Assembly: GCF_028771845.1 (NCBI RefSeq)
Contig: NZ_CP118270.1
Span: 3,906,001 to 3,970,000, forward strand
From: Paenibacillus marchantiae
GTDB taxonomy: Bacteria > Bacillota > Bacilli > Paenibacillales > Paenibacillaceae
Reading direction: 5' to 3'
Length of the DNA stretch: 64,000 bases
Below, piece by piece: positions 1,361 to 50,801 of this stretch; position 1 is the stretch's first letter, and every line of letters begins with the position of its first letter. Under the pieces are notes generated by a model. The model was not told the DNA's origin, ran no database searches, and saw only the letters and a program-made list of their open reading frames with translations. The position numbers and the translations under genes are program-made.

Positions 1361-1626
1361 AAATCCTGTAGGATGGATTTAAGGTTCATGAGCGAAAGTT
1401 GAAATGCAACTTCGATTGTGCTTGCCAACGTGCAAACGTAGTAGAGGGAACGAAATCGATTCTGGAGAAGCGTAGCGTTCGCCTTTGTCTCCAAATTTCA
1501 ACCATGTATAAGGTTCATCAAGAAATTGAGAGACAACAGCGATCGGAAGAACGATTCGTAACCGGAACGGCCACTTTGCAGAACGTTGAGCACTTGGTGT
1601 ATGAACCGCCACATCCTACAGGATTT
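1361..1626. repeat. Inverted-repeat-bounded structured element between glgD and glgP (MITE-like or RNA-forming)
   Basis: The 15-base sequence AAATCCTGTAGGATG at 1361-1375 is repeated as its exact reverse complement at 1612-1626. Just inside the arms, GGTTCAT (1383-1389) pairs with ATGAACC (1601-1607). The interior has a further foldback in which GGAGA and GCG pair with CGC and TCTCC across 1464-1491, so the transcript could fold into a long branched stem. Short open frames inside it have no convincing ribosome binding site or protein-like composition, so I treat it as non-coding. It ends 5 bases before the glgP Shine-Dalgarno site. Either a miniature mobile element or a structured leader fits. 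I could not search for other copies. Confidence 0.6.
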
Positions 1627-1645
1627 CACCGGGAGGAACCTTCTT

Positions 1646-4078
1646 TTGTTTGACAACAAGGAAACGTTCAAGAGTATTTTTAGACGCAATCTGGTCAGCA
1701 AATTGGGCAAACCACTAGCAGAAGCAACGCAGGAAGATGTCTATCACGTACTTGGAAGCATGATCCGCGAATATGCGGGTCAAGATTGGGCGGCGTCGAA
1801 TCAGGGGTTTAAGCAGCGCCAGGATAAACAGGTCTATTACTTCTCGCTGGAATTCCTGATTGGACGTCTGCTCGGCAACAACCTGTTAAATGTGAATGAA
1901 TTGGAACTCGTTCGTGACAGTCTGGCTGAATTGGGTTTCTCTTTGGAAGAAGTGGAAGAACAGGAAGCGGACGCAGGGCTCGGCAACGGAGGTCTGGGAA
2001 GACTCGCGGCCTGTTTTCTGGATTCACTGGCTTCCCTTGGCTATGCAGGACATGGATGCGGAATCCGATATAAATATGGCTTGTTTGAGCAAAAAATTAT
2101 TAACGGCAATCAGGTGGAATTACCCGATAATTGGCTTGAGAAGGGCAATGAATGGGAAGTGCGTCGTCCGGACAAAAAGGTGGAAGTGCAGTTCTGGGGC
2201 CGTGTGGAGGCTTATGAACAGGATGGGCATTATCAATTTGTCACGAAGGATGCCGAATCAGTGGTAGCTGTACCATATGATGTGCCTGTGATTGGTTATG
2301 GCCAGCCCCATGTAAACACCTTGCGATTGTGGAGTGCGGAGCCCAAGCGGGAGACTTCACTCGATACCCCTTCGAACTATTACGGATATCTGGATTACAG
2401 TCGTTCGGTAGAATCGATCTCGGAGTTCTTGTACCCGGATGATTCCCAATACGAGGGCAAGCTGCTCCGTCTGAAACAGCAATATTTCATGTGCTCGGCA
2501 GGCGTACAGAGTGCTTTGCGTACATTTAATAAGCTGGAGCTTTCGTATGATCGATTGCCGGATAAAGTGGCGTTCCATATCAACGATACGCATCCAACAC
2601 TCGTGATTCCCGAACTGATGCGCATTCTGATCGATGTCAAAGGCTACGGATGGGATGAAGCATGGGATATTACGACCCGCACCGTATCATATACCAACCA
2701 TACAACGCTAAGTGAGGCGCTTGAAAAGTGGCCTGTAGCCATGATCAGCAAGCTGCTGCCGCGCATTTACATGATTATTGAAGAGATAAACAAACGCTTC
2801 TGTGGCATGCTGCTCGAACGTTTTCCCGGAGACCAGGATCGTATCCAGCATTTGGCGATTGTTGCGAATGATCAGGTGCGAATGGCTCATCTGGCGATTG
2901 TGGGCAGTCATAGCGTCAACGGTGTCGCGGCATTGCATACCGAAATATTGAAGGAACGGGAGATGGCTCCGTTCTATGCTCTATATCCCGAGCGCTTCAA
3001 TAACAAAACCAATGGCATTACCCATCGCCGCTGGCTGATGCATGCCAATCCGAAGCTGTCGAATCTGATCACAGATACGATTGGAAGTGAGTGGATTAGG
3101 GAGCCGGGCAGACTGAATGAGCTGGTAGGCGTTGCGGACGATGCTTCATTCCAGCAGCAGTTCCATTCCATTAAACGTAATAATAAGGAGCGACTGGCCA
3201 CGTACATCCTGGATCATACCGGAAAGGCGGTCAATCCGGATTCCATCTTTGACGTACAGGTGAAAAGGCTGCATGGATACAAACGGCAGCTGCTGAACAT
3301 TCTGCATGTTATGCATTTGTATAACCGTCTCAAGAGCGATGCTTCGTTTGATATCGTGCCACGTACATTTATTTTTGGAGCAAAGGCAGCGCCGAGTTAT
3401 TATTTTGCCAAAAAAATTATCAAATTGATTAACACGGTGGCAGATACGGTTAATCGCGATGCGGCCGTGAAAGATCGTCTACAGGTATTTTTCCTGGAAA
3501 ACTACTCGGTTTCTCTTGCCGAGAAAATCATTCCAGCCGCGGACGTCAGCGAACAGATTTCAACCGCAGGTAAGGAAGCCTCCGGTACGGGGAACATGAA
3601 GTTTATGATGAACGGTGCGTTAACTATTGGTACCATGGACGGCGCGAATGTCGAGATGGCAGAGCAGGTTGGTCAAGACAATATGTTTATCTTTGGTCTG
3701 AGTGCAGACGAGGTGCTTGAATATTACCGATCCGGCAGTTATCGGCCGAATGAGATTGTACAGCAGGATGAACGAATTCGTGAGGTCGTGGAGCAGCTGG
3801 TACACCCAGGAGTGTTCTGTGAGCGTGATGGTGAATTCTGGGATATCTATGATTCCTTGCTGGCTCATGGTGACGAGTACTTTGTGTTACGTGACTTTGC
3901 TGCCTATGCCGATGCGCATGCTGCCATTGATTCGGCGTACCGCGATGTATCGGGCTGGACACGCAAGGCAGTGCTGAATACGGCTCATTCCGGCATTTTC
4001 TCCAGTGATCGTACCATCAGTGAGTATGCGACTGATATCTGGGGCATCCATCCGGTGTCCGGACACTGGAAAGCTTAA
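1646..4078 (+). CDS. glgP: Glycogen/starch/maltodextrin phosphorylase
   Basis: The protein has 810 residues, the normal length for the GT35 family. It releases glucose-1-phosphate from alpha-1,4-glucan using pyridoxal phosphate. The hallmark segment EASGTGNMKFMMNGALTIGT (about residue 640), followed by MDGANVEM, contains the lysine that binds the cofactor. Other conserved blocks are GNGGLGRLAACFLDSLASLG, HINDTHPTL and KTNGITHRRW. The start is TTG 1646, 8 bases after GGGAGGA (1631-1637), giving MFDNKETFK. The frame is open upstream to a TTG at 1586, but that extension runs through the inverted-repeat element and lacks a ribosome binding site. B. subtilis has glgA between glgD and glgP; here no synthase gene lies between them. 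Confidence 0.95.
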   Translation: MFDNKETFKSIFRRNLVSKLGKPLAEATQEDVYHVLGSMIREYAGQDWAASNQGFKQRQDKQVYYFSLEFLIGRLLGNNLLNVNELELVRDSLAELGFSLEEVEEQEADAGLGNGGLGRLAACFLDSLASLGYAGHGCGIRYKYGLFEQKIINGNQVELPDNWLEKGNEWEVRRPDKKVEVQFWGRVEAYEQDGHYQFVTKDAESVVAVPYDVPVIGYGQPHVNTLRLWSAEPKRETSLDTPSNYYGYLDYSRSVESISEFLYPDDSQYEGKLLRLKQQYFMCSAGVQSALRTFNKLELSYDRLPDKVAFHINDTHPTLVIPELMRILIDVKGYGWDEAWDITTRTVSYTNHTTLSEALEKWPVAMISKLLPRIYMIIEEINKRFCGMLLERFPGDQDRIQHLAIVANDQVRMAHLAIVGSHSVNGVAALHTEILKEREMAPFYALYPERFNNKTNGITHRRWLMHANPKLSNLITDTIGSEWIREPGRLNELVGVADDASFQQQFHSIKRNNKERLATYILDHTGKAVNPDSIFDVQVKRLHGYKRQLLNILHVMHLYNRLKSDASFDIVPRTFIFGAKAAPSYYFAKKIIKLINTVADTVNRDAAVKDRLQVFFLENYSVSLAEKIIPAADVSEQISTAGKEASGTGNMKFMMNGALTIGTMDGANVEMAEQVGQDNMFIFGLSADEVLEYYRSGSYRPNEIVQQDERIREVVEQLVHPGVFCERDGEFWDIYDSLLAHGDEYFVLRDFAAYADAHAAIDSAYRDVSGWTRKAVLNTAHSGIFSSDRTISEYATDIWGIHPVSGHWKA

Positions 4079-4098
4079 ATAAGTAGTATTTAACAATG

Positions 4099-4183
4099 AA
4101 ATCCCCTTGTACATTAGGTTGATCTCTGTTGAGTTCATATACCTTCATCAGAGATCACTCCTTATTGCACAAGGGGATTTTTG
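4099..4183. terminator. Branched bidirectional terminator between glgP and the CPBP gene
   Basis: An outer 12-base perfect stem (AAATCCCCTTGT at 4099-4110, ACAAGGGGATTT at 4169-4180) has A-rich and T-rich flanks. It encloses a second perfect stem (TGATCTCTG at 4120-4128, CAGAGATCA at 4149-4157). It lies between convergent genes, so it can serve both. The nested second stem is more elaborate than a simple terminator. Confidence 0.75.
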
Positions 4184-4189
4184 TATGAA

Positions 4190-4999
4190 TCAGCCGACTG
4201 GTCGTGACACACTTTGTGCGTTATCGCGCCGCTTTTCACGACGAAGGATGATCGGAACCATGATCACTGCAGCGATCACCAACAACGGAGCTAGTAAACC
4301 AGCGATGGGTAACGCCGATGCGCCATTCGCTGAGAAGACGCTCAAGTCCCAGAACCCGTGCAGGAATATGGAGGCCACGAGTGATCCGGTAGACCGCCGA
4401 GCAAGATAGAAGATCGAACCAAGGCCAAAAGCGATCACTACCTGGAACAGGGCACCCGCTCCGATACCCCAGAACATGTTCGGCAGGTGGAAGACTGCGA
4501 ACATCGCTGTTGAGAGCAGCCAGACCCCGGTTTCGCCGAATCGGCTGCGCAGAGCAACAATTAACTGACCTCGGTTGATCATCTCCTCATTGAAGCCAAC
4601 CATGATACTGCCGAAAATGAGATACAGCCACATGAGGGGGGTGACCCGGCTGAAATCGCCGGTCAGCATATTCACGATCGCGATGACCATCATGATGATC
4701 GGCAGAGTCATTGTCCATCGAGAAAGACGCCGCCTTTCAACTAGGCTAGGACGCCACCATCCGTAGATCGTGACCATTGTGATGGTCAGCACTGCACCGC
4801 CGGACAGCGGTGCTATATACCAGAGAAGAAGGGTCTGCTCACTCTCACCCACTCGCGTGTAGTCGATGCCGTTGAGCAAGAAGATCGCGTAGAAAACTGC
4901 GCTGTAGAGGAAATATGTGAGAACTGCCCATCCTACGCGGGGACGAACCCGAAGGGCAGGGTCCAAAGTTTCTTGCAGCTTGTCCCTATTAATTGACAT
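4190..4999 (-). CDS. CPBP family intramembrane glutamic endopeptidase
   Basis: The protein has 269 residues and about seven hydrophobic segments. It carries the three motifs of the CAAX protease/bacteriocin-processing (Abi/CPBP) family: NEEMINR (EExxxR), FAVFH (FxxxH) and HGFWD (HxxxD). Members are membrane proteases; some take part in bacteriocin immunity or signalling, and nothing here identifies the substrate. I chose ATG 4999 because GGGAG lies about 9 bases upstream. A GTG at 5014 overlaps that site. It is a single gene convergent with glgP. By eye the coding sequence looks richer in G and C than the VanZ-like gene that follows, which may mean acquisition. Confidence 0.85.
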   Translation of the reverse strand: MSINRDKLQETLDPALRVRPRVGWAVLTYFLYSAVFYAIFLLNGIDYTRVGESEQTLLLWYIAPLSGGAVLTITMVTIYGWWRPSLVERRRLSRWTMTLPIIMMVIAIVNMLTGDFSRVTPLMWLYLIFGSIMVGFNEEMINRGQLIVALRSRFGETGVWLLSTAMFAVFHLPNMFWGIGAGALFQVVIAFGLGSIFYLARRSTGSLVASIFLHGFWDLSVFSANGASALPIAGLLAPLLVIAAVIMVPIILRREKRRDNAQSVSRPVG

Positions 5000-5309
5000 G
5001 ATAAACACTCCCACTATACATTAATATTTTTTTCATTTGCTCTTGTTTTCTTATGATTTTAACTTCGATTAAGTCAAGATATAGTCCCGCTAAGTCTTTG
5101 GAAACAGTGCCGACAGCTGCCTCATTTACAATTCTAGTTGCCCAAGTTAAATAGAAGCTAACGAAATGGATAAAAACCAGCTAAATTTTCACTGCTGTAG
5201 TTTAGGTTCTGTTTAGGTAACGATGGGGTAGGATGAGGCAGACAGTTGAAGGGCTTGCTCTAGTAAAAAAAACATATTATATTTCCTCTCTTGATGAACA
5301 GCATGGAAA
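5000..5309. other. Intergenic stretch with no gene recognised
   Basis: This AT-rich region lies upstream of the CPBP gene (minus strand) and of a broken regulator fragment. I found no open frame with a ribosome binding site and no strong hairpin. It presumably holds the CPBP promoter, but no clear -35/-10 pair stood out. Confidence 0.4.
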
Positions 5310-5444
5310 ATGACAAAAAAAGTACTGAAGCCTAGCTATTTTCCCATTGAAATTCCTGGCGGTTTATATGCCGGGTTCACGGTGGATGTATGGAACTCCA
5401 CGCCTGAGCAGCTGGACATGAAGATCTATATCCCTTTAAAATAG
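5310..5444 (+). pseudogene. Remnant of a GyrI-like/AraC effector-binding domain
   Basis: A 44-codon frame ends in TAG (5442-5444). Its text YFPIEIPGGLYAGFTVDVWN, then a short spacer and MKIYIPLK at the end, resembles the last strands of the GyrI-like small-molecule-binding domain, which closes many AraC-family and BmrR-type regulators. Stops lie just upstream in the same frame, and no DNA-binding domain or remaining domain body is present. I take it as the 3' stub of a deleted or degraded regulator. The recognition is from sequence memory and should be checked by profile search. Confidence 0.5.
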
Positions 5445-5487
5445 ACCTTACCGCTCCGCGGGAAAAAAGGTCGGAGGAATTCAGACA

Positions 5488-5946
5488 ATGAACGAACGTT
5501 CGTGGCTCCACTCCAGGTGGATGCTCACAATCGTCGCATGTATGGCATTGTTATATGTGTTGATTATGGGTAACTTGCTCTTTGTCAGCGGGAGAACGCC
5601 TGGCGTGAATTATCAATATAATCTGGTACCATTAGAGACAATCAAGCCTCTTCTTTTTCAGAAGAACAGATACCATACGGAAGCCTGGGTGAAGAATCTG
5701 TTCGGGAACATTGTTTTGTTCATCCCGCTTGGGATATGGATTCCCTGGTTATTCCGCAGGTGCCGAAAGTTTTTACCATTTACAGGTATTGTCGTCTTAC
5801 TTTTGTTAGCTGTTGAGATTATGCAATTGATTACCCGTGTTGGTTCGTTTGATGTCGATGACATTATTTTGAATACAGTGGGTGCCTGGATTGGATACAT
5901 AGGGTTTGCCTTATTCATCTTCTCACAGAGAAGGACTCGAAAATGA
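5488..5946 (+). CDS. VanZ-like membrane protein
   Basis: The protein has 152 residues and four predicted transmembrane segments (about 10-32, 68-88, 95-113, 122-145). The pattern YQYNLVPLETIKPLL, NLFGNIVLFIPLGIWIPWLF and a late DVDDIILNTVGAWIGY is typical of the VanZ family. VanZ itself gives low-level teicoplanin resistance, but most chromosomal members have no assigned role. GGAGGA at 5472-5477 is well placed for ATG 5488. It stands between the regulator remnant and a GH13 gene and shows no operon partner. Confidence 0.8.
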   Translation: MNERSWLHSRWMLTIVACMALLYVLIMGNLLFVSGRTPGVNYQYNLVPLETIKPLLFQKNRYHTEAWVKNLFGNIVLFIPLGIWIPWLFRRCRKFLPFTGIVVLLLLAVEIMQLITRVGSFDVDDIILNTVGAWIGYIGFALFIFSQRRTRK

Positions 5947-6066
5947 ACTGCGAATAGCAGTTAATGATCGGGTCTTTTTGTGTTCATGGATCTTTTCTGT
6001 TTATAAGAGGGACATTTCGGATAAAACATACTAACGGGTTATATAGTAAAGAGTGATGAAAGCGAG

Positions 6067-7758
6067 GTGGTCTATATCGTTTGGTGGAAAGAGAGTGTGG
6101 TGTACCAGATCTATCCCAACAGCTTCAAAGATTCGGATGGGGACGGTCAGGGTGACTTGCAGGGGATATATGACAAGCTCGATTATTTGACTGATCTGGG
6201 CGTGGATGTAATTTGGATTTGTCCAATCTACGATTCACCTGGTCATGATAACGGATACGATATCCGTGATTATTACTCCATTTTACGTAAGTATGGCACG
6301 ATGGAGGATTTTGACCGTTTGCTGGCTGAGGCGCACAAGCGCGGTCTCAAGATCATGATGGATCTGGTGCTGAATCATACGTCGGATGAACATGCGTGGT
6401 TTGCCGAGTCACGTTCATCGAAAGTGAACCCGAAACGGGACTATTATATTTGGCGTTCAGGCAAAAATGGTCAGGTTCCAAACAACTGGGAGTCCTACTT
6501 TGGGGGATCTGTGTGGAAGCTTGATCCGGAGACGAATGAATATTATTTGCATCTCTATACAGAACACCAGCCTGACCTGAATTGGAACAATCCACAGATG
6601 GCAGAAGAGATGTATGAGATGGTGCATTGGTGGTTGCAAAAGGGTGTGGATGGTTTCCGTTTCGATGCGGTGGCGCATATCGGCAAGGCGGAGGGGTTAC
6701 CCAGCGCACATAATCCGGATAATCTGCCGGTCGTTCCTGCGTACCAGCTTTTTTCCAACCTCGAGCAGGTGCATTCGATTCTGAATAAACTTAACGACAT
6801 GATCCTGAAGCCGTATGGTCCAATGACTGTTGGAGAGACTTCCGGGCTTGGACCGGAACAGGCGCTGGCTTATGTTGGGACAGATCGGAATGAGCTCAAT
6901 ATGGTGTTCCAGTTTGAGCATATGTTTGTGGACGCTCAATCATCTGGAATCGGCAAATGGAACTATCGAGAGTGGAAGCTGCCCGAGCTGAAAGAAATTA
7001 TGAGCCGCTGGCAAACCGTGCTGCATGACAGAGGCTGGAATGCCAATTATATGGGCAATCATGACCAGCCGCGTCCGGTATCCCGTTTCGGTGATGATGG
7101 AAAGTACAGGGTGCGCTCTGCCCAGATGCTGGCTACTTGGATGCTCACCCTTGAGGGTACGCCTTACATTTATCAAGGGGAAGAAATCGGCATGACCAAT
7201 GTTGCTTTCCCTAATATTGAGGATTATCGGGATATTGAAACGATGAATTATTATCGGCAGCATATTGGACAAGGGCGAGCGAAACATGAAGTCATGCAAG
7301 CGATCTGGCGCAAGAGTCGTGATAATGCCCGTACACCGATGCAGTGGGATGATACGAAACATGCCGGATTTACCGATGGTGAGCCATGGATTCAGGTGAA
7401 TGCGAATTATCCTGAGATTAATGTGGAGGATGCCGAACGTGATCCCCAGTCCATTTTGCATTATTACCGTAAACTAATCGCTCTTCGCAAACAACATAAA
7501 GTACTTATCTATGGGGAATACGAGCTGCTTTTGCCCAATGATCCCGATATTTATGCCTATACCCGGACGCTGGATGATGAGCAGATGCTTGTTATTCTGA
7601 ATTTCCGTGAACATGAGCCTGAGATGCAATGGCCTGAGGGTTGGAACGATGAAAATGCCAAGACGGTCATTAGCAATGTCAGCAGACGATATTCCACCGA
7701 TAAGGGTGCGATACTTCTTCAGCCATATGAAGCAAGGGTTTATCGAATGCAGAGATGA
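6067..7758 (+). CDS. Alpha-glucosidase / oligo-1,6-glucosidase (GH13)
   Basis: The protein has 563 residues and a complete GH13 (subfamily 31-like) layout: WWKESVVYQIYPNSF at the N-terminus, GVDGFRFDAVAHI with the nucleophile Asp, MTVGETSG with the acid/base Glu, and MGNHDQPRP with the transition-state Asp. A short beta domain closes the protein. It is cytoplasmic (no signal peptide) and probably splits short alpha-linked glucosides taken up by the cell. The start is uncertain. GTG 6067 gives MVYIVWWKES, but the best Shine-Dalgarno-like text (GAGGTGG) overlaps it, and no other in-frame start is present before WWKES. It is a close relative of, but distinct from, the trehalose-6-phosphate hydrolase at 10447. 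Confidence 0.9.
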   Translation: MVYIVWWKESVVYQIYPNSFKDSDGDGQGDLQGIYDKLDYLTDLGVDVIWICPIYDSPGHDNGYDIRDYYSILRKYGTMEDFDRLLAEAHKRGLKIMMDLVLNHTSDEHAWFAESRSSKVNPKRDYYIWRSGKNGQVPNNWESYFGGSVWKLDPETNEYYLHLYTEHQPDLNWNNPQMAEEMYEMVHWWLQKGVDGFRFDAVAHIGKAEGLPSAHNPDNLPVVPAYQLFSNLEQVHSILNKLNDMILKPYGPMTVGETSGLGPEQALAYVGTDRNELNMVFQFEHMFVDAQSSGIGKWNYREWKLPELKEIMSRWQTVLHDRGWNANYMGNHDQPRPVSRFGDDGKYRVRSAQMLATWMLTLEGTPYIYQGEEIGMTNVAFPNIEDYRDIETMNYYRQHIGQGRAKHEVMQAIWRKSRDNARTPMQWDDTKHAGFTDGEPWIQVNANYPEINVEDAERDPQSILHYYRKLIALRKQHKVLIYGEYELLLPNDPDIYAYTRTLDDEQMLVILNFREHEPEMQWPEGWNDENAKTVISNVSRRYSTDKGAILLQPYEARVYRMQR

Positions 7759-7847
7759 GACATCATTTTGCTTTGGCGAAGAGTTTTGAATTATAATATG
7801 GGTTGAAAATCAAACCAAACGAACGCATATGTCAGGAGGATACCAAG

Positions 7848-8540
7848 TTGTTGAATATTACTTACCACGGACACTCCAGTGTACAACTGGGCACAGAAGA
7901 GAAGTCGTTGATCATTGATCCTTTCCTGCGTGGCAATGAACTTGCTGTCACCAAACCGGAAGACATCAAGACCGATGCCGTTTTACTGACACATGCACAT
8001 ATGGATCACATTTTGGATGCTGAACCCATCGCCAAGGCTAACAATGCTAAGGTGGTTGCGATTGTGGAACTGGCTACATATATGTCATGGAAAGGCCTGG
8101 ACACCCTTGGCATGAACATGGGTGGAACGGTGGATCTTGGCTTTGCGCAAGCCAAAATGATTCAGGCTTTCCATACGTCCGGTATCGTACTGGAAGAGGA
8201 ACAACGGATCATGTACGCAGGATTGCCTGCAGGATATATTATTAACATTGGTGGCAAAACCGTTTTGCATGCCGGAGATACTAGCCTGTTCGGTGATATG
8301 AAAATGATTGGTGACCGCCATGATATCGACGTAGCACTATTGCCTATTGGTGGACATTTCACCATGGGACCGGAGGATGCACTGCAGGCTGCTGAATGGT
8401 TCAATGCCAAGCTGACGATTCCGGTGCATTATGATACGTTCCCGGTTATTCGTCAAGATGCCGAGAAGTTTGTGGAGCAGCTTGCTTCCAAAGGTCTGGA
8501 AGGCCGTGTGCTGGCACCGGGACAATCCCTTACCCTGTAA
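7848..8540 (+). CDS. UPF0173 metal-dependent hydrolase (metallo-beta-lactamase fold)
   Basis: The protein has 230 residues. It starts MLNITYHGHSSVQL and carries the metal-binding motif HAHMDH (about residue 51), further histidines in FHTSG and HAGDTSLF, and HYDTFP near the end. This is the pattern of the YtkL-type UPF0173 family, whose substrate is unknown. AGGAGGA at 7834-7840 selects the TTG at 7848, with another TTG directly after it. The frame extends upstream to 7803 without a ribosome binding site. It is a single gene followed by a very strong terminator. Confidence 0.88.
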   Translation: MLNITYHGHSSVQLGTEEKSLIIDPFLRGNELAVTKPEDIKTDAVLLTHAHMDHILDAEPIAKANNAKVVAIVELATYMSWKGLDTLGMNMGGTVDLGFAQAKMIQAFHTSGIVLEEEQRIMYAGLPAGYIINIGGKTVLHAGDTSLFGDMKMIGDRHDIDVALLPIGGHFTMGPEDALQAAEWFNAKLTIPVHYDTFPVIRQDAEKFVEQLASKGLEGRVLAPGQSLTL

Positions 8541-42173: not shown

Positions 42174-42399
42174 TATATCACCGCTGACTGCATCATAATA
42201 ATACGACAGGCATTGCTCTCGTATGTTTTAATTATAAAACACATTGCACGAAACGCAAATCATTTAATTTTAATATGAAAACAAAGCTTACATAAAAGCG
42301 CATAAAGTTCTTATAGAGGACAAACAAAAATCTGAAATAGGCTCATAGACTGTGTAAGAAGGCTCCAATTCATATGATTCCAATTAAGATGAAGGGGAG

Positions 42400-45300
42400 G
42401 TGAGATCAATTCCTCTTGTCGTTCGTTCAACCGTTAATGCTACGGGAGCAATTACATTTACAGGTAACACGCTTGGACTGAGTCGTTCGGACACAGCCGG
42501 AGTACCCGGAACACAGGACAGTATTGGAGCTTTTACGACAACCAACGCTTCCGTCCAGTACGGAACCTATCCGCTAGGAACCACGAGCCTGTATCAGAGC
42601 AACAGTTCAGCGGCAATACTCGTTCTTCCTGCTGGCAGCACTGTCTTGTATGCAGAATTGATCTGGGGTGGAAGTTACATCAATGGGACAGTCAATCTGA
42701 GTGCTGCAATCAATAATCCGGTTACGTTTACTACACCAGCAGGTACATCCAGTGTTACTCCTGATCCAGCTACTTATAATCAATTTGATCTGGGGAACGG
42801 CGCTGCCGGCTATGTGCGTTCAGCCAATGTTACTTCGCTTGTACAAAATGGGGGAGCGGGTACATATACCACCGGAGCAGTTGTAGGAACGATTGTCATC
42901 ACTAATGATGCTACAGCCAATCATGCAGGCTGGACACTTGGAGTCATTTATCAGAACCCCAGCCTGCCCTTTCGCAACATGTCCTTACGTGCAGGTGGAG
43001 TACTCGTCCAGTCTACATCGGCGCCAGTTGTTACCACACTGACTGGATTTGCTACTCCGCTTTCGGGTGCATTGGGAGGCAGAGCCCTGTTCAGTGCACA
43101 GGAAGGGGACGCGAACCGGACCGGGGATCAGGCATTATTCGGGCCAACCTCGGCAACTTCGGTTGCCTTGTCCGGACCAAACAATCTGGCTGCAAACTTT
43201 TTTGCTTCTCAAATCAACGGCGATACAGGAACCCTTAATACAACAGGGACTTTCGGAACGCGGAACCAGACGAACGGGGCTCCGGGCACCAATATTATCG
43301 GCGGACGTCAAGGCTGGGATATTACTAATGTGGATGTGTCATCGAGACTAATCAATAACCAGTCTTCTGCGGTGTTGACGTTAACGACCTCCGGGGATGC
43401 ATACATTGTCAATGCCAATGCGATTCAGGTTGATATCAATGCACCCAAAATTACAGTGGCCAAAGCATCCGTTGCCTCTGGTGCGGTAGCGGGGGATAGC
43501 ATTCTTTATACCGTTACTGTCAGCAATGCAGGTACAGCCAGTGCGGCCAGCGTTGTTCTATCCGATTCATTGCCTGTAGGGCTCACCTTCATTCCAGGGA
43601 GTGTAACGGTCGCTGGTGTGTCCCGCCCAACACTCGATGTGACCGCCGGCATTCCACTTGGTTCATTAAATCTATCCAACAGTATCGTTGTAACCTATCG
43701 TGCGCTCATTGGCCAGGATGCAAGCATACTGCAATTGGTGAATTCAGCGAATGCCGCCTTTACGTTCCAAAGTGTGGCAGGGGGCTCAGTGATTACGGGA
43801 GTCATTCCGTCCAATAACTCTACACTTCCTGTCTATTCACCAAACCTGTCCATTGTGAAGTCGGCGAGCACAACCAACGCCACAGTAGGTGACCAGGTCA
43901 CGTATACGCTTCAGGTGAACAATGGGGGGAATGTTTCTGCCAACGTTACATTAACGGATAACATCCCGAGCGGCAGCTCGTACGTAGCGGGCAGCTTCCG
44001 ACTAAATGGAAATGTGATTGCTGGTGCTAATCCCGCGACTGGCGTTAATCTGGGGAGCCTCGCGGCAGGAAGTACAAATACCGTAACCTTCCAGGTACTC
44101 GTAACAAGCTTGCCTACGCCTCCGACCCTTGTGGATCAAGCCACGGCCACCTATTCCTTTAACTCTCCTGATGGTCGGACTATTAACGGCACAGTAGCTT
44201 CGAACACCTTGACGATTCCCGTCACATTGCCCAATGTAACCACGGTAAAATCGGCATCGGTCACGGATGTTGCAGTTGGGGAGACGTTTACGTACACCAT
44301 CGTTACTACCAACAGTGGTATCCAAGTGATTAACAATGTGGTGCTCACGGATGCTATCCCTGTTGGAACCACATTTGTAGCGGGCAGTGTGATCGTCAGA
44401 GGAACTGTCGTACCATCAGCCAATCCGAGCAGTGGAATTTCGCTAGGAACGTTGGCAGCAGGAAGTTCCGCGTCGGTGACGTTTCAGGTTAATGTGCAGT
44501 CCCTGCCTGCTTCAAGTTCGTTAGTTAACCGTGCCGTAGTGTCTTATAGCTCGGGTTCGTTCACGGGGATTTCCAACTCCAATTCCATTACAACCCCTGT
44601 ATACCAGGCGGCAATCGGCATTAACAAGTTGGCGAGCGAAACCAATGCGACACTAGGGGATCAGATTTCATACACACTTGTGGTAACGAACAACGGAACC
44701 ATAGCGACTCAAGTAAATATAACCGATACGATACCATCAGGCCTGACATTTAACCCGGATTCGGTAACCGTGAATGGTACTGCGCGTCCTGGGACCAATC
44801 CATTAACCGGAATAACGTTGGGGGGTCTGCTGCCAGGAGCAACATCAACGATTGTGTTCCGAACTTCACTCACTACACTCCCATCACCGCCAACACTAGA
44901 GAATCAGGGGGCCGCTAGTTACACGTACCAGCTTCCGAGTGGACGAAATCTTTCAGGAAGCAGTTTGTCCAATGTCGTTCGTATACCTGCATCAAGCCCC
45001 AATATATTGATTAGCAAAACAGTAAGTACGCCGGACGCTACCGTAGGGGATGTACTTACCTATACGGTTGTTGCAACAAATGCTGGGAGCAGTGCGGTAC
45101 AAAATCTGGTGATCTCGGATACGCCAACCGGTTCGGAATTCGTCTCCGGCAGTGTCACTATTAATGGAGCTGCTGCAAGGAATGCAAGTCCGCTTTCGGG
45201 CATTGCTGTCGGTGCATTGAACAGTTCAAGCAGCGTTACGGTGACCTATCAAACAAGAGTGACATCCGTTCCGTCCACAGGTTCAGTCAGCAACCGGGCA

Positions 45301-48300
45301 AGTGCAGCATTTACGTCAGGCAGTTTTAATGGCGTTTCTTCGTCTGTTACGGTGAATACACCCATATATCAACCAGTCATCCAAGTAGCTAAAACAGCTA
45401 GCACCTCGAATTTGACAGTAGGGGATTCCTTTAATTACTCCATTCAGGTCAACAATTCAGGCAATATTGCCGCAACGGTTACCTTGACGGATCCGATTCC
45501 TGCGGGAGCTGTATTCAGTACGAATAGTGTCATTATTAATGGCGTACCAACACCAGGTGTTAGCCCGGTAACAGGAATTAATTTGGGGCCGATCGCTGCA
45601 GGCTCGAACGTAACGGTCACTTTTGTTGCCATGGTCACAAGTTTGCCTGATTCAAGGCAGTTGACTAACCAAGCAGTTGCATCATTTGCCTACACTCTTC
45701 CAAGTGGGAGAACGGTTGCCGGTTCTTCGTTATCGAACACCATTAACATTCCCGTATCCTTGCCCAATGTAACGATAGTAAACAGTGACAATGTAGAGTA
45801 TGGCGTGGTCGGGGATATCATTCGATACACATCTGTTATTCGTAACAACGGAACAGTAGCCGTTAACAATGTGGTATATGTCAACCCTCTTCCTCCGAAT
45901 ACCCCATTTGTACCCGGAAGCGTCATTGTGAACGGGACTTCATTCCCGCTCTCCAATCCGACCGCCGGCATTCCAATCGGTACGTTGGCTCCAGGAGCCG
46001 AGGTTACCGTAACTTTTGAGGTGACGATTACTATGCCGATCCCTTCACAGATTAACAATCAGTCGACGGTCAGCTTCACATCCGGTTCATTTTCGGGGTC
46101 ATCATCATCCAATACAACACAGACTCCGGTCATACAACCGCAAATTTCACTCATCAAAACAGCAAATACAGTTAATGCGACCGTAGGCGACACGGTTATA
46201 TATACAGTAACTGTCAGTAACACAGGCAATCTGGAGGCAAACGTTACAGTGACAGATACGATTCCTACTGTCACAACTTTTGTACCCAATAGTCTCGTGG
46301 TATCTGGTGTACCACAGCCTGGAGCAACACCAGGAACGGGTATTCCTGTAGGCATTGTGGCAGCGGGAGCGACAGCTGTTGTTACATTTGCCGTTGTTGT
46401 GGATTCACTTCCATCTCCGCAGCAACTTAGCAATTTTGCGACGTCATCTTTTACTTTCACACCTCCTGACGGGCGAACGTTAACAGGGACAGCCACCTCA
46501 AATACACTGACGTTTCCAGTCTCGTCGCCAAACGTTGCCGTAGTTAAAAGTACAGTTTCTACTGCGGCTGCCGTAGGGGATACTGTTACTTACTCCATTT
46601 TGGTAACGAACAGCGGAATAGCACCGGTAAATAATATTCAGTTTTCGGATCCAATTCCTACGGGGGCCTCTTTTGTTGCAGGAAGTGTCACTATAAATGG
46701 GGTAGTGCAGACCGCTTCCAATCCGGCAGGGGGGATATCACTAGGTACGCTCGCTCCCGGAACGTCTGCAACTGTGACTTTCAGTATCAATGTCAATGCG
46801 ATCCCACCAAGTGGACAATTAAGCAATCGATCCACAGTGAGTTTTACCTCGGGGACATTCTCAAGCACAACGTTCTCCAATACTGTGGTTACACCGGTAT
46901 TTCAGCCCATTCTATCAGCACAAAAAACGGCGAGTACACGAAATGCTACCGTTGGGGATACCGTCAGTTACACGATTACCGTCAACAATCAGGGTAACTA
47001 TGGTGCCCAGATTAACCTAACGGACAATATTCCTACAGGAACCATACTTGTTCCGAACAGTGTGATTGTAAATGGTCAGCCATTACCTGCAGCCAATCCT
47101 GCAACAGGCATTCCGGCAGGCACTGTTGCTGCTGGGGCAACAACAACGGTTACCTTTTCCGTAGTTATTGATACTTTGCCGACCCCGCAACAGCTGGTGA
47201 ATCAGGCTTCGGTTGCTCTTTCCTTTACGCTGCCTGACGGACGCAACATCACGGGTTCTGTTTTGTCTAATATACTTACCATTTCAGTGTCGGCTCCCGA
47301 TGTCGATGTGGTGAAATCTACGACATCTACGTCTGTATCTGTTGGTGATGTCGTGACGTACAGCATTGCAGTAACTAATAACGGAATAGCGACTGTCAGC
47401 AATGTGGTCTTTACGGATGCATTGCCGGCAAGTACTGTTCTTACAGCAAACAGCGTGTTTATTGATGGAGTTCCTCGACCGGGTGTCAATCCTTCAACCG
47501 GAATAACGCTTGGTTCCATCGCGCCTGGAGTTACCGTGACCGTTGTGTTTAGTGTGCAGGTTACAGCACTCCCATCCAGTGCAGTATTAAACAATCAGTC
47601 TACAGTGAGCTTTACATCAGGTGTTTTTTCAGCTACCACATTTTCTAATACGGTCACTACCCCGGTATACCAACCGATTCTGTCGGCAGTCAAAACGGGA
47701 GACCAGGCTATAGCAACGGTAGGGGATACGGTCGTTTACAGCATCGCGATTACCAATGCAGGGAACTTTGGGGCATCTGTCACGTTAACGGATACCATTC
47801 CGGCAGGAACAGAACTTGTGCCAAATAGCGTCATTATTAATGGAGCTTCAGCACCAGGAGCCGATCCGGCTTCAGGGATACCACTGGGTGTAGTCTCCAC
47901 AACAACTGTAATCATGTTCTCGGTCGTGATCATCACCCTACCTTTAAGCCAGGCCATAACCAATCAGGCCTCAGCAACCTATTCCTACACGCTGCCGGAT
48001 GGAAGAACACTGGGAGGAAGCCTTTCGTCCAATTCTCTCAATATTCAGGTGTCTGCTCCGAATGTCAGTGTCGTCAAGACGACACCAGTAATTGATGTTG
48101 TAGTGGGTGATACGATTGTATATGAGATGGTCGTAACCAATAATGGGATTGATCCTGTCAACAATGTCGTGTTAACCGATCCAATCAGTTCGGCTGTTAC
48201 TTTTGTCACAGGCAGTGTCCTGGTTGACGGCGTTCCACGTCTCACGGCTAACCCGACACTGGGGATAGCGCTTGGTTCTTTGGCACCTGGAGCATCTGTA

Positions 48301-49110
48301 TCCGTTTCGTATGCGGTTCGGGTCAACACGCTGCCTGCACCACCGCAAGTGAGTAGTCAGTCATCGGTAAGTTTCACATCGGGTGTATTCTCGGGAGCGG
48401 CCTATTCAAATACCGTGGTAACACCAATTTATCAGCCGATTATTGCTGTAACCAAAACAGCGAGTACGTCCAATGCCACCATCGGAGACATCATTACCTA
48501 TTCTTTTACCATTTCCAACAGTGGGAATTTAGCAGCCAATTTGACACTTACGGATAACATTCCGAATGGAGCAGTACTGCTTCCCAACAGCGTCCTGATT
48601 GATGGTGTTCCACAGCCAGGTGCAAATCCGGAATCAGGGATTGTTGTTGGGACGATACCTCCAGGAGGGTCCGTTAATGTAACGGTCACTCTGGAAGTTA
48701 CCGTGGATTCATTGCCGCAGAATCAGCAGCTGGTCAATCAGGCGGTAGCCAATTATACATTTAGTCCGCCGGATGGACGTCAGTTGACGGGTACAGTATC
48801 CTCCAACGTTCTGGTGATTCCTGTATCTGCACCAAATGTCGTTGTGATCAAAAGCACAAGTGCAGTTGATGCTGTTGTCGGCGATGTGATCACCTATACA
48901 GTTGTGGTAACCAATAGTGGCATCGAGGTAGTCAATAGCGTGGTTATGGTAGACCCTGTACCAACAGGCACCGTATTTGTAGCGGGAAGTGTTACGGTGG
49001 ATGGCGTGGCAAGGCCTACGGGGAATCCGAATACAGGGATAACACTCGGTTCAATTGTCGCCGGTGCTTCAGTTACCGTTACATTCAGAGTGGAGGTTGT
49101 AGTGATATGA
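42400..49110 (+). CDS. Giant DUF11-repeat protein (15 repeats)
   Basis: The protein has 2236 residues. A unique N-terminal domain (about 1-345, beginning with NATGAITFTGNTLGLSRSDT) is followed by 15 DUF11-type beta-sandwich repeats of about 125-130 residues. Each has a K-S/T-A-S, VGD, Y-T/S, V-x-N-x-G core and a PNSV or GSV turn. From repeat 2 on they alternate between class A (ending DGR, then SNTLTIPV) and class B (ending FTSG-F, then SNTVVTPVYQP). Composition is rich in Ser, Thr, Asn and Val with almost no Cys. No signal peptide, membrane helix or LPxTG anchor is visible. GTG 42400 lies inside the GGGGAGGTGA ribosome binding site, so the true start is uncertain. It is probably a surface, spore or matrix filament protein. 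Confidence 0.85.
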   Translation: MRSIPLVVRSTVNATGAITFTGNTLGLSRSDTAGVPGTQDSIGAFTTTNASVQYGTYPLGTTSLYQSNSSAAILVLPAGSTVLYAELIWGGSYINGTVNLSAAINNPVTFTTPAGTSSVTPDPATYNQFDLGNGAAGYVRSANVTSLVQNGGAGTYTTGAVVGTIVITNDATANHAGWTLGVIYQNPSLPFRNMSLRAGGVLVQSTSAPVVTTLTGFATPLSGALGGRALFSAQEGDANRTGDQALFGPTSATSVALSGPNNLAANFFASQINGDTGTLNTTGTFGTRNQTNGAPGTNIIGGRQGWDITNVDVSSRLINNQSSAVLTLTTSGDAYIVNANAIQVDINAPKITVAKASVASGAVAGDSILYTVTVSNAGTASAASVVLSDSLPVGLTFIPGSVTVAGVSRPTLDVTAGIPLGSLNLSNSIVVTYRALIGQDASILQLVNSANAAFTFQSVAGGSVITGVIPSNNSTLPVYSPNLSIVKSASTTNATVGDQVTYTLQVNNGGNVSANVTLTDNIPSGSSYVAGSFRLNGNVIAGANPATGVNLGSLAAGSTNTVTFQVLVTSLPTPPTLVDQATATYSFNSPDGRTINGTVASNTLTIPVTLPNVTTVKSASVTDVAVGETFTYTIVTTNSGIQVINNVVLTDAIPVGTTFVAGSVIVRGTVVPSANPSSGISLGTLAAGSSASVTFQVNVQSLPASSSLVNRAVVSYSSGSFTGISNSNSITTPVYQAAIGINKLASETNATLGDQISYTLVVTNNGTIATQVNITDTIPSGLTFNPDSVTVNGTARPGTNPLTGITLGGLLPGATSTIVFRTSLTTLPSPPTLENQGAASYTYQLPSGRNLSGSSLSNVVRIPASSPNILISKTVSTPDATVGDVLTYTVVATNAGSSAVQNLVISDTPTGSEFVSGSVTINGAAARNASPLSGIAVGALNSSSSVTVTYQTRVTSVPSTGSVSNRASAAFTSGSFNGVSSSVTVNTPIYQPVIQVAKTASTSNLTVGDSFNYSIQVNNSGNIAATVTLTDPIPAGAVFSTNSVIINGVPTPGVSPVTGINLGPIAAGSNVTVTFVAMVTSLPDSRQLTNQAVASFAYTLPSGRTVAGSSLSNTINIPVSLPNVTIVNSDNVEYGVVGDIIRYTSVIRNNGTVAVNNVVYVNPLPPNTPFVPGSVIVNGTSFPLSNPTAGIPIGTLAPGAEVTVTFEVTITMPIPSQINNQSTVSFTSGSFSGSSSSNTTQTPVIQPQISLIKTANTVNATVGDTVIYTVTVSNTGNLEANVTVTDTIPTVTTFVPNSLVVSGVPQPGATPGTGIPVGIVAAGATAVVTFAVVVDSLPSPQQLSNFATSSFTFTPPDGRTLTGTATSNTLTFPVSSPNVAVVKSTVSTAAAVGDTVTYSILVTNSGIAPVNNIQFSDPIPTGASFVAGSVTINGVVQTASNPAGGISLGTLAPGTSATVTFSINVNAIPPSGQLSNRSTVSFTSGTFSSTTFSNTVVTPVFQPILSAQKTASTRNATVGDTVSYTITVNNQGNYGAQINLTDNIPTGTILVPNSVIVNGQPLPAANPATGIPAGTVAAGATTTVTFSVVIDTLPTPQQLVNQASVALSFTLPDGRNITGSVLSNILTISVSAPDVDVVKSTTSTSVSVGDVVTYSIAVTNNGIATVSNVVFTDALPASTVLTANSVFIDGVPRPGVNPSTGITLGSIAPGVTVTVVFSVQVTALPSSAVLNNQSTVSFTSGVFSATTFSNTVTTPVYQPILSAVKTGDQAIATVGDTVVYSIAITNAGNFGASVTLTDTIPAGTELVPNSVIINGASAPGADPASGIPLGVVSTTTVIMFSVVIITLPLSQAITNQASATYSYTLPDGRTLGGSLSSNSLNIQVSAPNVSVVKTTPVIDVVVGDTIVYEMVVTNNGIDPVNNVVLTDPISSAVTFVTGSVLVDGVPRLTANPTLGIALGSLAPGASVSVSYAVRVNTLPAPPQVSSQSSVSFTSGVFSGAAYSNTVVTPIYQPIIAVTKTASTSNATIGDIITYSFTISNSGNLAANLTLTDNIPNGAVLLPNSVLIDGVPQPGANPESGIVVGTIPPGGSVNVTVTLEVTVDSLPQNQQLVNQAVANYTFSPPDGRQLTGTVSSNVLVIPVSAPNVVVIKSTSAVDAVVGDVITYTVVVTNSGIEVVNSVVMVDPVPTGTVFVAGSVTVDGVARPTGNPNTGITLGSIVAGASVTVTFRVEVVVI

Positions 49111-50801
49111 GCCAATCTTCCGGTCCGTTGTCCCACACGCTACAGAATCAGTCACTGGTTCGATTCAGCTCGGGTACGACTGAACTGGAACAGGTGGCCT
49201 ATTCTAATACGGTAGTTACACCATGGATCGGCCCCAGGCTGGAGGTTTACAAGTTTTGCAACGTTGCTGAGGCTGCTCTGGGGCAGACACTGACCTATCT
49301 GATTGAAATTGTGAATTCGGGTAATTGTGCTGCCATGGTCCATGTATTGGATTCGCTCTCGTCGGAAACTTCACTTCTCCCCAATAGTGTACTCCTGGAT
49401 GGAACTCCGCTGCCAGGAGTATCACCGGAGAGAGGGATTCCTGCGCAGGAAATCGTACCTGGAGCGACGTTGCGTATTCATTTTCAGGTGATCATCGTCG
49501 GTCTTCCTCAGGACTTGAAACTGGTGAATCAAGCGAAGATACGTTATACATTTGTGACGCCGGAAGGACGAATGGTTGAGGGAGAAGAGCAATCCAACGT
49601 GGTAGAAGTAAATCTGGTCTCGTCAAGTCTGTCGTTGGTTTTGAATGCAGATCGTGTGCAAACCTTTGTCGGAGATATCGTCACTTACAACCTTTTGGTG
49701 AGTAACCCGGGTTTTATAATAGGAAACGATACCAGGGTAACGATCCCATTACCCAAAGGGATTGAATTTCTTCCGGGAAGTGTCATTGTGAATGAGATTT
49801 TTGTTCCCGAGACGACGCCTGACTCCGGGATTATGATAGGCGAGGTACTACCCGAAGAATCTGTTCCAATTCAATTTCGAGTACAGGTCACGGGAGGAAG
49901 CATAGCTGAGAATTTAACAATTCAGGCAGTACTAGAGTACGTTTCAGGTGACACATTGGAGAATGTATACTCGAACGTAGCAACTTTACAAATCATTCAA
50001 CCTCGGATTTCGATTGCGAAAAGTGTGAATCCACCCATCGCTACTCCTGGGGATACCGTTCAATACCAAATAACGGTACACAATGAAGGTTCTTTTGCAG
50101 TAGATGCTATCGTGACGGATTTTCTTCCGCCAGGTATGCGCTATGTTGAGGGGAGCCTGGGGTGGAACGGTGTGAAACGGCTTGGAACAAATCCAGTCAA
50201 AGGCATCAATCTGGGAACGTTGACTGCACGTTCCGTGGTTAATATCCAATTTGAAGTGCATCTCACAGAGCAGGAGCGGGGTGTACCTGCAGTCTTCGAA
50301 CTGATGAATCAGGCTCGCCTGATCTATACATTTCGCTTGCCAGATTCGCGTTCTGTGCAACGAATAATTTCCTCCAATACGGCTGTCATTCAGTTGAAGT
50401 TTCCTATCATCTCGGTTCATGTGGAAGTGAAGCCAGACTTGATCGAAAGGGGAGGAAATGTAACCTTTCATGTACATGTGACCAACAAAGGGGCCTGGCC
50501 CGCGCGGGTGCAGTTGGCTGATGTGCTCCCTCCAGGTGCCAAATGGATTGGGGAAGCAGAAGTACGGGATCGAGCGATCATTTCAGAGTATTCATCACCA
50601 AGATTTTTACATTTGGGTGAGATGGAACCTGGAGCGGAGAAATGGGTCACTTACATTGCACAAATATCCTCCGCTGAACAACTGGGAATCCAGCAGGGTA
50701 CCGTAACTGCAATGTATACCTACGAGTGGAACGGTCAGAGGCATTCAGGACAGTCCATTTCGAATGTATACACCATTATTGTTGAAGATGGCGATGAATG
50801 A
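43441..50801 (+). repeat. Higher-order A/B DUF11 repeat array, period about 765 bp
   Basis: Nineteen DUF11 repeats run across both genes. The conserved Lys codon (or its equivalent) of successive class A repeats falls at 43858, 44626, 45391, 46156, 46924, 47692 and 48454, so the spacing is 762-768 bases. In the second gene it falls at 49251 and 50019, 768 apart. Only the interval that spans the gene junction differs (797). Repeats 2, 4 and so on to 18 are class A; 3, 5 and so on to 19 are class B. Nucleotide identity between units is modest, so the duplication is old. Confidence 0.8.
49107..50801 (+). CDS. Second DUF11-repeat protein, beginning mid-repeat and overlapping the first by ATGA
   Basis: The protein has 564 residues. 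Its first 45 residues (LQNQSLVRFSSGTTELEQVA, then YSNTVVTPW) are the C-terminal half of the class B repeat that the first gene leaves unfinished. Four more DUF11 repeats follow in A, B, A, B order (starting near 49240, 49620, 50000, 50400), more diverged than those in the first gene. There is no signal peptide or anchor. GGAGGT at 49092-49097 lies 9 bases before ATG 49107, and ATG overlaps the upstream TGA, so translation is probably coupled. The gene looks like the split-off end of one ancestral reading frame. Confidence 0.82.
   Translation: MSQSSGPLSHTLQNQSLVRFSSGTTELEQVAYSNTVVTPWIGPRLEVYKFCNVAEAALGQTLTYLIEIVNSGNCAAMVHVLDSLSSETSLLPNSVLLDGTPLPGVSPERGIPAQEIVPGATLRIHFQVIIVGLPQDLKLVNQAKIRYTFVTPEGRMVEGEEQSNVVEVNLVSSSLSLVLNADRVQTFVGDIVTYNLLVSNPGFIIGNDTRVTIPLPKGIEFLPGSVIVNEIFVPETTPDSGIMIGEVLPEESVPIQFRVQVTGGSIAENLTIQAVLEYVSGDTLENVYSNVATLQIIQPRISIAKSVNPPIATPGDTVQYQITVHNEGSFAVDAIVTDFLPPGMRYVEGSLGWNGVKRLGTNPVKGINLGTLTARSVVNIQFEVHLTEQERGVPAVFELMNQARLIYTFRLPDSRSVQRIISSNTAVIQLKFPIISVHVEVKPDLIERGGNVTFHVHVTNKGAWPARVQLADVLPPGAKWIGEAEVRDRAIISEYSSPRFLHLGEMEPGAEKWVTYIAQISSAEQLGIQQGTVTAMYTYEWNGQRHSGQSISNVYTIIVEDGDE

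Follow-up and report, generated by a model that had tools for sequence, protein, structure and literature searches.

The window analyzed here is a stretch of 64,000 nucleotides from the complete 7.0-Mb genome of Paenibacillus marchantiae (positions 3906001-3970000 of contig NZ_CP118270.1). Positions are counted from its first nucleotide, and all features described lie on the forward strand. The window carries two overlapping genes for giant repeat proteins, and the boundary between the genes falls inside a repeat. Gene 1 (42409..49110) begins with an ATT codon and encodes a head domain, 14 complete DUF11/CLIPPER repeats, and the N-terminal part of repeat 15. Gene 2 (49107..50801) encodes a protein of 564 amino acids composed of a leader, a half-repeat (here called the tag), four more DUF11-type domains, and an acidic C-terminus; its nearest named relative is from Paenibacillus taichungensis (98%).

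The TGA stop of gene 1 (49108-49110) and the ATG start of gene 2 (49107) share the sequence ATGA (49107..49110), a stop/start overlap as in translationally coupled genes, which was seen in every junction read. The Shine-Dalgarno sequence of gene 2, GGAGGT (49092..49097), lies within the V-E-V codons of gene 1 with a spacing of 9 bases to the ATG; in relatives it is often AGAGGT or ACAGGT. With a profile derived from intact repeats, gene 1 shows 14 full repeats plus profile positions 1-90 (of 130) of a fifteenth, and the N-terminus of protein 2 falls at positions 93-128, ahead of the four further domains. The two half-repeats are therefore complementary and do not overlap. These results bear out an earlier note on this DNA, which had ended gene 1 inside repeat 15 after TVTFRVEVVVI, had let gene 2 open with the missing half, and had pointed out both the overlap and the GGAGGT site. 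The note had also given the distance between A-class repeats across the junction as 797, which we found as well (48433 to 49230), against 762-768 in neighboring pairs, and had read the difference as ~32 extra bases. The extra length is real, but it is better described as a new start and a variable leader of ~10 residues in place of the normal loop.

Identity of the repeats and position of the cut

The repeats match DUF11 (PF01345) and the NCBIfam isopeptide-forming fimbrial domain TIGR04226. At the Pfam curated cutoff, protein 1 has 15 PF01345 stretches and protein 2 has 3, and the first part of the split repeat by itself reaches 41.9 bits (contig 3954838-3955101, window 48838-49101), the cutoff being 24.6. 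DUF11 has been renamed CLIPPER, and the domain in the structure 9IFR has a CnaA-like fold with an Asp-assisted isopeptide bond between Lys715 and Asn806 (PMC12617251). Searched with an alignment profile of the window repeats, the PDB yielded 9IFR as the sole match (E = 6.5e-6); the alignment pairs Lys to Lys, Asp to Asp, and Asn to Asn. The alignment profile was required for this detection, and a phmmer search of the PDB with a single repeat gave only a spurious match. The triad of the window repeats is spaced by 33-34 residues from Lys to Asp and by 58 from Asp to Asn. The catalytic Asp of 9IFR is numbered 748 in PMC12617251 but is 749 when counted along the construct (708-828), where 748 would be Asn.

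The AlphaFold2 (AF2) model of the intact sister repeat 11 has a predicted local distance difference test score (pLDDT) of 96. Its best Foldseek match is 9ifr (E = 5e-8), with a VIA Z score of 13.5 and a root mean square deviation of 2.1 over 113 residues, and its VIA neighbors include the isopeptide pilins BcpA, SpaD, RrgB, and EbpB. According to this single-chain model, the repeat is a CnaA-like immunoglobulin (Ig) fold. The fold alone is no proof of function, because the Ig domains of integrin and TRAP score equally.

In the model of repeat 11, Lys8 lies on the first strand (4-10), Asp42 lies at the end of strand 35-42, and Asn100 lies on strand 98-101 in the region of the penultimate strand. 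The gene break maps to the loop between strand 81-90 and strand 98-109: protein 1 ends two residues past the strand equivalent to 81-90, and protein 2 resumes right before the Asn strand. The cut in this loop therefore leaves Lys and Asp on protein 1 and gives protein 2 both Asn14 and the last strand, so that the reactive partners are on separate chains, as in tag/catcher pairs. The first part of repeat 15, which we call the catcher (48829..49107; profile positions 1-90), extends from the first strand up to and including the one that ends in RVEV. It contains the codons for the Lys equivalent to the isopeptide Lys715 of 9IFR (48850..48852) and for the Asp that the 9IFR alignment makes the catalytic aspartate equivalent (48952..48954). 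The leader, residues 2-11 of protein 2 (49110..49139), gives the N-terminus MSxxSxxLSHW in place of the missing loop. It is followed by the tag, residues 12-39 (49140..49223; profile positions 93-128), with the penultimate and last strands and the codon for Asn14 (49146..49148), the equivalent of the isopeptide Asn806 of 9IFR.

When protein 2 was modeled with AF2, its four complete domains were mostly near pLDDT 90, and residues 1-40 had a pLDDT of 41-63 (~41 for the leader) and formed four short orphan strands. A partial Ig domain on one chain and its missing strands at the N-terminus of the other are consistent, in these single-chain models, with a donor-strand arrangement.

Conservation of the split

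Comparison of the locus in related genomes, as the earlier note had proposed, revealed the same split at every readable locus, and no fused version of the locus was found among relatives. Counting all DUF11 matches, 29 of the 40 near genomes match gene 2, and the orthologues in these genomes (31-85% identity) are all preceded by a gene 1 of ~2,240 amino acids; the ATGA overlap is present in 15 of 15 of their junctions. Of 75 genomes in the genus, 49 contain the junction pattern, only a few of these matches being at the three-mismatch chance level, and 31 junctions were read, including that of the divergent locus L072. An identical split occurs in a second genus of the same family (L104-L109, L111), and the same break with ATGA was found in 47 distinct junctions. 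Among the named Paenibacillus genomes, 42 of 48 loci were read automatically, all with the overlap, and the other six, which were draft-broken or missed by the filter, each terminate in the same half-domain. Paenibacillus pini also has the ATGA and the tag. The gene 2 of this draft genome (L160, 11072 onward) starts normally with the tag, and its frame breaks after ~100 codons.

In total, 60 distinct gene pairs, drawn from two genera within one family, show the same split, with gene 2 identities down to ~32%. Agreement on this scale (15 of 15 near junctions, 47 distinct junctions, 60 gene pairs) places the split beyond chance, and the conserved two-gene split is genuine rather than a product of sequencing error. 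Outside these two genera, a search of 399 genomes of the class yielded no relative of gene 2 at E < 1e-50. In one genome of the same species (G050; L094, about 1430-1560), the site is empty and the flanking genes are joined without either gene, and the pair is therefore dispensable and gained or lost as a unit. At locus L027 (G011, 1421-8152), an in-frame stop codon interrupts gene 1 after residue 940 of its frame, which reflects either an error or a pseudogene. A record named Neobacillus mesonae MER 107 (L161) has a gene pair of the kind typical of Paenibacillus and is possibly a misnamed genome.

A PF01345 search of the whole genome found this pair and one single-ORF (open reading frame) paralogue only. 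The latter (L041, contig 4221000-4233000) is a second giant DUF11 protein, with a frame of 1701 amino acids, complete repeats, and an acidic C-terminus. Together with L036 and L038-L040 from other genomes it forms a group of paralogues, each of which encodes in one ORF a similar head, 10-28 repeats without interruption, and an acidic C-terminus; a further paralogue, L037, is interrupted near its end. We considered L036 and L038-L041 as fused relatives of the locus and rejected this, as they are paralogous proteins with uninterrupted repeats and those checked start with ATG or GTG. Because the paralogues carry everything in one ORF, the gene pair can be regarded as the two-chain version of a fiber that is normally a single chain.

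Selection on the half-domains

Lys, Asp, and Asn14 are invariant in all 60 distinct gene pairs, as are the tag residues Gln15, Val18, Ser33, and Asn34. The intact repeats of the same protein differ in this respect: the triad is KDS in 12 of 15 genomes in repeat 13 (48055-48432), mostly NNN in repeat 7 (45763-46131), and often KDD in repeat 2 (43837-44223), and these losses are common to nearly all close species. Since intact repeats have lost it, the triad appears to be unnecessary merely for folding.

No repeat of gene 1 is conserved as well as repeat 15 when far species are compared (0.676), and in gene 2 the tag is the best-conserved 28-residue window. The conservation of the tag is 0.92/0.57, versus 0.61-0.72/0.24-0.36 for the other domains of gene 2, and its mean identity is 0.62 versus 0.27 for the leader. 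The ratio of nonsynonymous to synonymous variation (pN/pS) over the 60 gene pairs amounts to 0.103 in the tag and 0.108 in the half on protein 1, compared with 0.25-0.34 for the other domains of gene 2 and 0.54 for the leader. By these sequence measures, few parts of the pair are as constrained as the two half-domains, and the intervening leader can vary freely.

Gene 1 start and setting

From the alignments, gene 1 almost certainly starts at the ATT at 42409 and not at the GTG at 42400. The start codon is ATT in 49 of 51 loci and ATA in the other two, and it is preceded by an extended Shine-Dalgarno sequence, AAGGGGAGGTGA (42392..42403), which is conserved as AAGGAGGTGA-type in the 51 aligned starts. 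The GTG lies within this sequence, and only some of the species have it in frame. Among the ten Ile columns that are invariant in the head, the start column alone lacks ATC (36 ATT, 1 ATA), and the others have 10-33 ATC. At the position of the gene 1 ATT, the paralogues checked have ATG or GTG. AUU and AUA starts with extended Shine-Dalgarno sequences are known from infC, cvfC1, and ccpN in Staphylococcus and Bacillus (PMC13009471).

Upstream of gene 1 is a candidate SigK-like promoter of the mother-cell, late-sporulation type (42324..42351), ACA followed after 17 nucleotides by CATAGACT; the match to SigK was made by eye, and the motif ACA-N17-CATAGAC is conserved in 12 of 15 aligned upstream regions. 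No signal peptide was evident on reading protein 1 or protein 2. DUF11 domains are present in a clostridial spore-appendage anchor (PMC11952670). Based on the SigK-like motif, the lack of an evident signal peptide, and this anchor, we suggest that the mother cell probably makes the pair as a protein of the spore surface.

Discussion

The locus consists of two overlapping genes that carry complementary half-domains, between which a conserved triad is divided, with strong selection on both halves. The best explanation is that both genes together encode one multi-Ig fiber of ~2,800 residues, probably at the spore surface, made as two chains. We think it probable that the two translationally coupled proteins rejoin via a naturally split isopeptide domain, that is, a natural tag/catcher. 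With slightly less confidence, we also favor the view that an autocatalytic Lys-Asn bond links the two proteins, which are translated separately, by joining the C-terminal catcher to the N-terminal tag, an arrangement that would have been kept across two genera. In the proposed mechanism, ribosomes would end protein 1 at the TGA and reinitiate on the overlapping ATG, leading to coupled and roughly equal synthesis of both proteins. The last Ig domain of protein 1, which lacks its penultimate and last strands, would stay open, and the N-terminal 39 residues of protein 2, probably unfolded alone, would supply both strands and insert into the open domain by strand complementation. The completed CLIPPER domain would place the Lys and Asp of protein 1 beside Asn14 of protein 2, and the isopeptide bond should then form spontaneously with release of ammonia, joining the chains covalently. 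Engineered splitting of CnaB isopeptide domains is often tolerated (PMC5487036), and such inter-chain chemistry is therefore plausible here.

The coupled two-protein system that the earlier note had envisaged is thus supported, since two genera have kept the split, the overlap, and both half-domains. The note missed the likely reason for the split, which is that the cut parts the Lys and Asp from the Asn of an isopeptide-forming domain, and its other suggestion, frameshifting that joins the two genes, is not supported. A programmed -1 frameshift would make the split merely apparent. It would agree with the -1 relation of the overlapping frames and with the paralogues that carry the same head and repeats in a single ORF. 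However, no conserved slippery heptamer was found on reading the junctions, and in three lineages (L072, L104, and L107) the frame of gene 2 is closed by a stop one codon before the ATG, so that the frameshift was rejected and is very improbable. A perfect ATG with a Shine-Dalgarno sequence and a leader of unrelated sequence between the halves also argue against it, and the local RNA fold at 49060-49190 is no better than that of shuffled sequences (z = -0.19; one sequence only). An error of sequencing or assembly has practically no probability. Tandem repeats are error-prone in draft genomes and a few loci do have draft breaks elsewhere, but the same junction, start, stop, and overlap recur in dozens of independent genomes, and this explanation was rejected as well. 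The single-ORF paralogues suggest a one-chain ancestral state, from which an old frame-breaking insertion could have left two independent proteins whose half-repeats are remnants without joint function. We regard this as quite improbable, though less so than a frameshift, because the half-repeats always occur together across two genera and belong to the most strongly constrained segments of the pair.

The most serious alternative is that the split domain is rebuilt by strand complementation and held non-covalently, the triad being kept for packing or by descent. This would fit all the evidence on anatomy and selection without a bond, and certain DUF11 domains do lack the isopeptide bond (PMC12617251). 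It is nonetheless unlikely in our judgment, as the triad is invariant in every split domain and lost in several intact repeats of the same protein, and both its spacing and its alignment match the bonded domain of 9IFR. Several points do count against the split isopeptide domain that we prefer. The covalent bond is a prediction from the residues only, and Asn14 or the whole tag could be kept simply for the fold and non-covalent assembly. The Shine-Dalgarno sequence of gene 2 is weaker (ACAGGT) in some lineages, and the proposed spore localization stems from a promoter match by eye and the lack of an evident signal peptide.

The naturally split isopeptide domain proposed here can be compared with several known systems. 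The described DUF11/CLIPPER members (PF01345, 9IFR; PMC12617251) are alike in family, CnaA-like fold, order of Lys, Asp, and Asn, and near-identical spacing. However, they are single-chain domains with an intramolecular bond, whereas here the domain comes from two genes, with the gene boundary inside it at every readable locus, and the bond is predicted to lie between chains. Engineered pairs such as SpyTag/SpyCatcher and SnoopTag share the cut in a loop and the placement of Lys and its Asn/Asp partner on separate chains (PMC5487036 for the splitting principle). They are man-made and mostly of the CnaB type, unlike the present pair, which is natural and CnaA-like and has a two-strand hairpin-like tag at the N-terminus of a protein. 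In donor-strand filaments (chaperone-usher pili, TasA), the N-terminal segment of the next subunit completes a partial Ig-like domain, much as proposed here, and the archaeal threads add proposed inter-subunit isopeptide bonds (PMC9715654), as predicted between the chains here. These filaments are polymers of repeated subunits, whereas the pair described here would form a one-to-one joint of two giant proteins, with the predicted bond inside the completed domain and made by a Lys-Asp-Asn triad. The HK97 capsid and the Bt "sporesilk" also have a self-formed inter-chain isopeptide bond; as far as they are mentioned in PMC12617251, the former has a capsid protein fold, the latter is an alpha-helical hairpin, and neither is a split Ig domain. 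A literature check limited to open papers found no natural split isopeptide domain. To our knowledge, the known tag/catcher splits of isopeptide domains are all engineered, and the arrangement is undescribed in the open literature searched. The domain and its chemistry are known; the natural split at the gene level is new.

If the proposed reading is true, evolution uses the laboratory tag/catcher trick to assemble giant proteins from two chains, and biotechnology would gain a tag/catcher pair of the Lys-Asn, CnaA type. The conserved AUU start would be an extra translational control point upstream of both chains. The finding also makes it testable why the bacterium builds a fiber of ~2,800 residues in two pieces that would be joined without sortases or chaperones.

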